From Kiritimatiellia bacterium (lineage in GTDB: Bacteria > Verrucomicrobiota > Kiritimatiellia > RFP12 > UBA1067): a stretch of DNA of 64,000 bases. Made by a program: the position numbers and the translations under genes. Location of the stretch: the NCBI GenBank assembly GCA_028686345.1, contig JAQUCE010000004.1:1-64000 (forward strand), given 5' to 3'. Shown one piece after another: positions 31,728-32,268 of this stretch (position 1 is its first letter; each line of letters starts with the position of its first letter). The notes under the pieces are model-generated. The model was given only the letters and a program-made list of their open reading frames with translations. It ran no database searches and had not been told where the DNA came from.

Positions 31728-31789
31728 GATAATCTCCTAATTCTAATTCTAATCTCAATCTTTATCAAGGTCGGCAACACCTTTGGTCA

Positions 31790-31906
31790 GCAATTCTAAT
31801 TATGACCGTGCACCTGTTCAGAAAGCACGCTAAAGTGTGAACTACATACGGTTTCCGGGGTATGTAGTTCACGCTTTAGCGTGTCTTCGGCCATAATTAG
31901 AATTGC
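31790..31906. repeat. 117-bp inverted-repeat element (MITE-like hairpin)
   Basis: The left end GCAATTCTAATTATGACCG and right end CGGCCATAATTAGAATTGC are nearly perfect inverse copies. The inner arms 'agcacgctaaagtgtgaactacatac' and 'gtatgtagttcacgctttagcgtg' pair as well, leaving a loop of about 9 nt. 'cctttggt' flanks it at 31780-31787 and 31911-31918, a possible 8-bp target duplication. The right arm also occurs alone at 8801-8834. No ORF is inside. The rest of 31728-32010 carries a double-hairpin family fragment ('gacaatagcggcgacgatgctggtggacgatt', from about 31920). Confidence 0.9.
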
Positions 31907-32010
31907 TGCGCCTTTGGTTGACAATAGCGGCGACGATGCTGGTGGACGATTTTCCAATCGTAATCCGTCATGGTAGCCGTTATCTCCGACCGAAGAACAA
32001 CAGATACCAC

Positions 32011-32044
32011 AAAAAAACCGCTAATCCCAAATAGAGATAGCGGT
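32011..32044 (-). terminator. Intrinsic terminator after tRNA-Cys
   Basis: Read on the minus strand, ACCGCTA .. TAGCGGT forms a 7-bp stem followed by seven Ts. It lies 7 bp beyond the encoded CCA of the tRNA gene. Confidence 0.85.
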
Positions 32045-32051
32045 ATAAAAA

Positions 32052-32125
32052 TGGAGGTGCGAAGCGGAATTGAACCGCTGTGGGAGGTTTTGCAGACCTC
32101 AGCCTAACCACTCGGCCATCGCACC
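32052..32125 (-). tRNA. tRNA-Cys (GCA)
   Basis: On the minus strand the acceptor arms GGTGCGA and TCGCACC pair. The D-arm is GCCGAGTGGTTAGGC, the anticodon stem-loop is GAGGT-CTGCAAA-ACCTC (anticodon GCA), and the T-arm is GCGG-TTCAATT-CCGC. The discriminator base is U, as expected for cysteine, and CCA is encoded. It lies 7 bp downstream of a 31-codon ORF and shares its promoter and terminator. Confidence 0.97.
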
Positions 32126-32132
32126 TTGTTGA

Positions 32133-32228
32133 TTATTTCTTGATCAAAGCGCGCACACGCTCTTTAAGACGCTTTTTGTATGCCTCTTTGCGCTGACGCT
32201 TCACTATTTTTTTTAGTTGTTGTCCCAT
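32133..32228 (-). CDS. 31-aa highly basic small protein next to tRNA-Cys
   Basis: ATG 32228 to TAA 32133 encodes a protein whose N terminus is MGQQLKKIVKRQRKEAYKKR, with a further basic tail ending LIKK. About half the residues are Lys or Arg and there is a single helical pattern, resembling tiny ribosome-associated or RNA-binding proteins (compare bS21 C terminus or THX in composition only). GAGG lies 5 bases upstream of the ATG. A consensus promoter (32239-32268) would start transcription only a few bases before the ATG, so the message may be nearly leaderless. I recall similar MGQ-LKK peptides in other PVC genomes but cannot confirm it. The codon structure, RBS and fixed position argue against chance. 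Confidence 0.6.
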   Translation of the reverse strand: MGQQLKKIVKRQRKEAYKKRLKERVRALIKK

Positions 32229-32238
32229 AAGACCTCGA

Positions 32239-32268
32239 ACTATATCAAATTCAGCACTTGGTTGTCAA
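32239..32268 (-). promoter_or_regulatory. Consensus promoter for the small ORF / tRNA-Cys unit
   Basis: On the minus strand TTGACA (32263-32268, 6/6), an 18-bp spacer and TATAGT (32239-32244, 5/6). The -10 ends only 10 bases before the ATG at 32228. Confidence 0.75.

Follow-up and report, generated by a model that had tools for sequence, protein, structure and literature searches.

Genes for tRNAs and for proteins can be joined in one transcript, as in the Escherichia coli tyrT operon, which also holds the tpr ORF for a 29-aa protamine-like protein, and in thrU-tufB; release of tRNAs from such longer transcripts is carried out by RNase P and 3' processing. Small basic proteins of the ribosome, for their part, continue to come to light, mostly as chance finds in cryo-EM maps. 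These include mycobacterial bS22 (there called uL41), visible as a rod-shaped density close to the decoding centre (PMC5876184); bL37, a lineage-restricted small ribosomal protein of mycobacteria that was also recognised through cryo-EM (PMC5876184); and bL38, a lineage-restricted small ribosomal protein of Flavobacterium and Borrelia, recognised by cryo-EM and, in Borrelia, by mass spectrometry as well (PMC10618245). In the titles and abstracts of the open-licence literature, we found nothing describing the MGQQ protein family reported here, nothing matching it on Verrucomicrobiota-specific ribosomal proteins, and no leaderless message joined to a tRNA of the kind discussed below.

The locus lies in a 64,000-nt stretch of DNA from a Kiritimatiellia bacterium, which was analysed as a whole and which we refer to as the window. 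An earlier note, made from the letters of this DNA, had proposed that a consensus promoter, a 31-aa basic ORF, a tRNA-Cys and a terminator form one compact unit, and each of these parts was found, on the minus strand (Table 1).

Table 1. Elements of the minus-strand unit, from upstream to downstream, in window coordinates.
Feature	Position	Strand	Basis
-35 box TTGACA	32263..32268	-	promoter scan; same place, TTGAC(A/T/C) or close variants, in most linked loci
-10 box TATAGT, preceded by TG (extended -10), 18-nt spacer	32239..32244	-	promoter scan
Interval from -10 box to ATG, 10 nt	32229..32238	-	sequence and spacing
31-aa basic ORF, MGQQ family	32133..32228	-	ORF reading, conservation, codon analysis
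Gap from ORF stop codon to tRNA-Cys, 7 nt	32126..32132	-	sequence
tRNA-Cys, anticodon GCA, CCA encoded	32052..32125	-	tRNA match, Rfam tRNA 59.4 bits
Intrinsic terminator: hairpin 32044-32017 and T run 32017-32011	32011..32044	-	folding

Promoters were called as matches to the consensus, and the one that heads the unit, with 11/12 consensus bases and the extended TG, is the best of 13 promoter-like sites in the region, where 2.8 were expected; the same scan returned no second site on the minus strand between this promoter and the tRNA. The terminator hairpin did not appear in the output of a simple scan and was identified by folding against shuffles, none of which (0) was equally stable (-14.4 kcal/mol, z = -5.1, run of 7 T). 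With a common promoter and terminator and no internal promoter, the predicted layout is that of an mRNA-tRNA dicistronic unit, which supports the proposal that the two genes, 7 bp apart, share both signals. The encoded protein is MGQQLKKIVKRQRKEAYKKRLKERVRALIKK. Its gene had also been described as falling below normal annotation limits, which holds only approximately, at 96 nt with the stop codon and with some relatives in the phylum reaching 74-122 aa. A search of the same genome gave the tRNA-Cys as the sole full-length match to its own sequence, and it is the cell's only detected tRNA for cysteine. On one side of the unit tgt (PF01702) is divergently transcribed; downstream comes a gene for an M20 peptidase. 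The interval from the terminator to this peptidase gene holds an imperfect palindrome of ~121 bp (31788-31908; 70% match to its own reverse complement over 121 bp), present in ~40 copies over the genome that are up to 98% identical, which looks like a MITE- or REP-type repeat.

Judged by its conservation, the 31-aa ORF is a genuine protein gene, since relatives occur in most of the genomes searched across the phylum. A DNA search of 60 relatives gave matches in 44 genomes, and in all 30 of the 30 loci read out the ORF stands upstream of tRNA-Cys. One of these, L015, which is the same locus as L040 (genome G045), has ATA where the start codon is expected and retains the promoter, the frame and the tRNA-Cys; the ATA may be a true, if unusual, start codon or may come from a sequencing error. 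Across 16 disjoint pairs of related genes, substitutions at codon positions 1, 2 and 3 numbered 42:30:133, with pN = 0.077, pS = 0.386 and dN/dS ~0.15, so that the codon-level check that had been suggested points to purifying selection. A frame without conservation in close relatives had been named as the outcome that would speak against a protein; instead, the frame is kept in the genus, the class and the phylum.

We used profiles to follow the family further, with E-values taken per genome. Profile A1 detected it in 134/193 genomes of the class and 147/195 of the phylum, and the broader profile A3 in 164/195 phylum genomes (154/184 among those of good quality), usually as one copy per genome. 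All of 34 diverse members share M1, G2, Q3, Q4, K10 and R20, and R11, R13 and R14 are nearly invariant among them; the proteins of the family measure 27-122 aa, with Lys/Ala/Pro-rich tails on the longer ones. A strict motif (MGQQLR...) run against all bacterial and archaeal species genomes gave no more than 19 loci, whose names were all of PVC type or unresolved, the named relatives, most of them metagenome-assembled genomes, coming from Kiritimatiellae, Lentisphaerae and Verrucomicrobia. The result of this one strict motif suggests that the family is absent from other phyla, and a background tblastn search of a 7.3-Gb plasmid collection gave no match. The family was likewise not found in some near-complete genomes, such as those of genus g6, which belongs to the window's own family, and the sampled genomes of family f4; because of these gaps, the protein is, on genomic evidence, dispensable and not strictly essential.

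The earlier note had suggested looking for the ORF beside tRNA-Cys in other PVC genomes, and the association proved to be widespread. In 59 of the 98 class loci, representing 25 of the 41 families sampled, a tRNA-Cys lies 3-140 nt downstream of the ORF on the same strand. The linked families are scattered through the class, which makes the linkage look ancestral in it, and the recurrence of ORF, promoter and tRNA together in dozens of genera places the arrangement far from chance. In L107 (genus g6) and in L110 and L113 (both family f4) the ORF is absent and a similar promoter stands directly before tRNA-Cys; these relatives therefore seem to have dropped the ORF from a shared unit. Within genus g6, which has no MGQQ gene, tRNA-Cys stands alone in L107 and follows a cluster with tRNA-Arg, tRNA-Met and tRNA-Pro in L108 and L109. 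Since the linkage is recurrent and ORF-less relatives have the promoter directly before the tRNA, a shared transcript for ORF and tRNA-Cys is a well supported prediction. The sister family f3 has a different context, in which the ORF has a Shine-Dalgarno (SD) site and directly follows tsf, the gene for EF-Ts (confirmed upstream in L047, L084 and L087 by PF00889, E ~1e-54). The two contexts meet in one locus of this family, L035, since the end of tsf (...RYQLGMA, stop) is readable before the ORF and tRNA-Cys lies 30 nt after it. Where neither tRNA-Cys nor tsf adjoins the ORF, its neighbours vary, with ruvA in one family of the class (f21), ispF in another family of the phylum (f51) and others besides, and are not consistently translation genes.

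The spacing between promoter and start codon is a conserved property of the linked loci. From the end of the -10 box to the ATG, the distance is 7-13 nt in 40/41 of them (mode 11), which by the usual sigma-70 spacing would leave leaders of ~1-7 nt, and an SD-like motif is present in just 2/41. The window is one of those two; its transcript is predicted, from standard sigma-70 spacing from the -10 box, to start at about 32232-32233 with a leader of roughly 4-5 nt, so that its GAGG would precede the start site and stay outside the transcript. If leaderless is taken to mean a 5' leader of 8 nt or less, with a promoter placed for transcription to begin at the start codon or just ahead of it and no SD site, the placement of this promoter would put the message in that class, and the suggestion that it is nearly leaderless gains weight from the conserved spacing and from the rarity of SD motifs in the linked loci. 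In the wider class set, where a promoter was counted if its score reached the 95% level of shuffles, one lies 5-16 nt before the ATG in 50/59 linked loci and also in 26/39 unlinked ones. Among the long ORFs of the window, an SD-like motif accompanies an early start codon in 28/36, and a comparably strong promoter at the same distance is seen in just 1/36. A published table gives a value of 63 for Kiritimatiellae, which we take as the percentage of genes with an SD (PMC10783764). This genome mostly uses SD starts, with which the near-leaderless message would contrast. The first codons are unusually constant in the linked loci, codon 2 being GGA in 40/41 and codon 6 AGA in 31/41, and later Arg codons are mostly CGN; such constancy at synonymous sites would agree with selection acting on the mRNA's 5' end.

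Taking these observations together, we consider it fairly probable that the locus is a dicistronic, near-leaderless unit making a lineage-specific rRNA-binding helix that is ribosomal or ribosome-associated. One short RNA would serve both as the message for the 31-aa basic protein and as the precursor of tRNA-Cys; transcription would start ~4-5 nt before the ATG, translation would begin on a near-leaderless 5' end without an SD site, and RNase P and 3'-end processing would free the tRNA from the shared transcript. For the protein, AlphaFold2 predicts a single helix over residues 2-30 with a mean pLDDT of 92.6; a single basic helix is a prediction to be expected for many basic peptides, and it could equally bind DNA. 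We infer RNA or ribosome binding from the composition, the predicted single helix and the place behind tsf in one family. The role to which we give somewhat better than even weight is binding of rRNA in or near the ribosome, ribosome-associated roles included, because of the helix, the fixed basic positions and MGQQ start, the location next to tsf or tRNA-Cys, and the existence of bS22, bL37 and bL38 as precedents. When it meets RNA, the protein may fold into a single Lys/Arg-rich helix and bind rRNA, which would make it a small, lineage-specific protein of the ribosome, or one associated with it, of the bS22 or bL37 kind; a transcript common with the tRNA could keep its supply in step with the demand of translation. 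More tentatively, and as something possible that we would not presume, it could be a new ribosomal protein of the Verrucomicrobiota, broadly defined, whose near-leaderless message in Kiritimatiellae also holds tRNA-Cys; this would give a fixed ratio of ribosome component to tRNA, a non-SD route of expression and possible feedback on leaderless initiation.

Since a 31-aa protein of this kind could be a known one in disguise, its identity has to be weighed against the described small ribosomal proteins. Pfam and NCBIfam searches gave zero matches, including to PF08213 and NF047430 at E <= 10, and, as a positive control, mycobacterial bS22 matched both; one long-tailed relative had weak Pfam and NCBIfam hits far below the cut-off. 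An hmmsearch of PDB chains with the MGQQ profile at E <= 10 matched none, bL37, bL38, bTHX and other proteins of solved ribosomes included, and Foldseek on the predicted structure, a lone helix and so a weak fold query, gave zero matches. The protein could still be a divergent bS22/mS38 (COX24_C, AURKAIP1), a 33-aa basic protein already described from the 30S subunit, given the equal size, the MG start and the similar basic pattern, and given that the sampled genomes of family f53, which we take to be Akkermansia-like, carry MGQQ (long-tailed where the sequence was read) and give no COX24_C match. This is very improbable, and we rejected the identity: besides the missing Pfam and NCBIfam hits, profile-profile comparison with hhalign gave probabilities of only 4.4% and 8.6%, and the same genome encodes a separate bS22/COX24_C protein (35.7 bits against a curated cut-off of 23), as do 64/145 phylum genomes above that cut-off and 124/145 at E <= 0.1. 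That gene (G000:C126:23159-23242; L098, L106) has a GTG start with an SD site and encodes MGSVKKKRRAKMSKHKYRKRLKANRHKNK. Because of f53, the MGQQ and COX24_C proteins do not, by profile matching, always co-occur. Identity with bS21 was also rejected, with no match to PF01165 and a separate bS21 gene at G000:C106, as in 78/79 phylum genomes. The 31-aa protein is therefore neither bS22/COX24 nor bS21, both of which the same genome encodes separately.

The remaining alternatives concern function. An assembly or hibernation-type factor of the ribosome, or a tRNA- or mRNA-binding chaperone, draws on the same sequence evidence as the main reading, of which it is a variant, and nothing in that evidence sets it apart from a constitutive ribosomal protein; a factor that is not essential would agree with the losses in some lineages. 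We regard it as a minority reading, improbable without being far-fetched. A small DNA-binding nucleoid protein, protamine- or histone-like, that shares a tRNA promoter only because this promoter is strong would agree with the Lys/Arg-rich single helix and with the long Lys/Ala/Pro-rich tails of some lineages (total length up to 122 aa), an appearance they have in common with histone H1-like proteins. However, the near-invariant N-terminal MGQQ and the fixed basic positions suggest a specific binding pocket rather than general charge, and the place behind tsf in one family and the usually single copy also argue against this role, which we hold to be unlikely. The short distance between ORF and tRNA, the near-leaderless start and the constancy of start-proximal synonymous sites could instead mean that the ORF is mainly a regulatory leader, whose translation controls read-through or processing of tRNA-Cys while the peptide is inert. 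Yet the protein is conserved in many genomes with no tRNA-Cys nearby, constraint acts at the amino-acid level along the ORF and Cys codons are almost absent from it, which makes such a leader highly unlikely.

Comparative genomics here supplies a phylum-spanning candidate for a small basic protein of the ribosome, together with exact sequences to seek in existing ribosome maps and proteomes, and the predicted near-leaderless message joined to a tRNA would be a simple natural coupling of protein and tRNA in bacteria that mostly use SD starts. The precedents differ from it in several ways. bL37 and bL38 have been seen in ribosomes; for the MGQQ protein a place there is predicted, and its profile matches no PDB chain at the threshold used. 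bS21 is likewise a small basic 30S protein, but one with its own separate gene. The likeness to bS22/mS38 (COX24_C, PF08213; NF047430) is closer, in that both are Lys/Arg-rich proteins of ~30 aa with an MG start that annotation easily misses; profile homology between them is nevertheless undetectable, and they are separate genes in the same genomes. The tpr ORF of tyrT is also tiny, basic and cotranscribed with a tRNA, but there the ORF comes after the tRNAs, whereas the MGQQ ORF comes first, has a predicted near-leaderless start and is conserved across a phylum.
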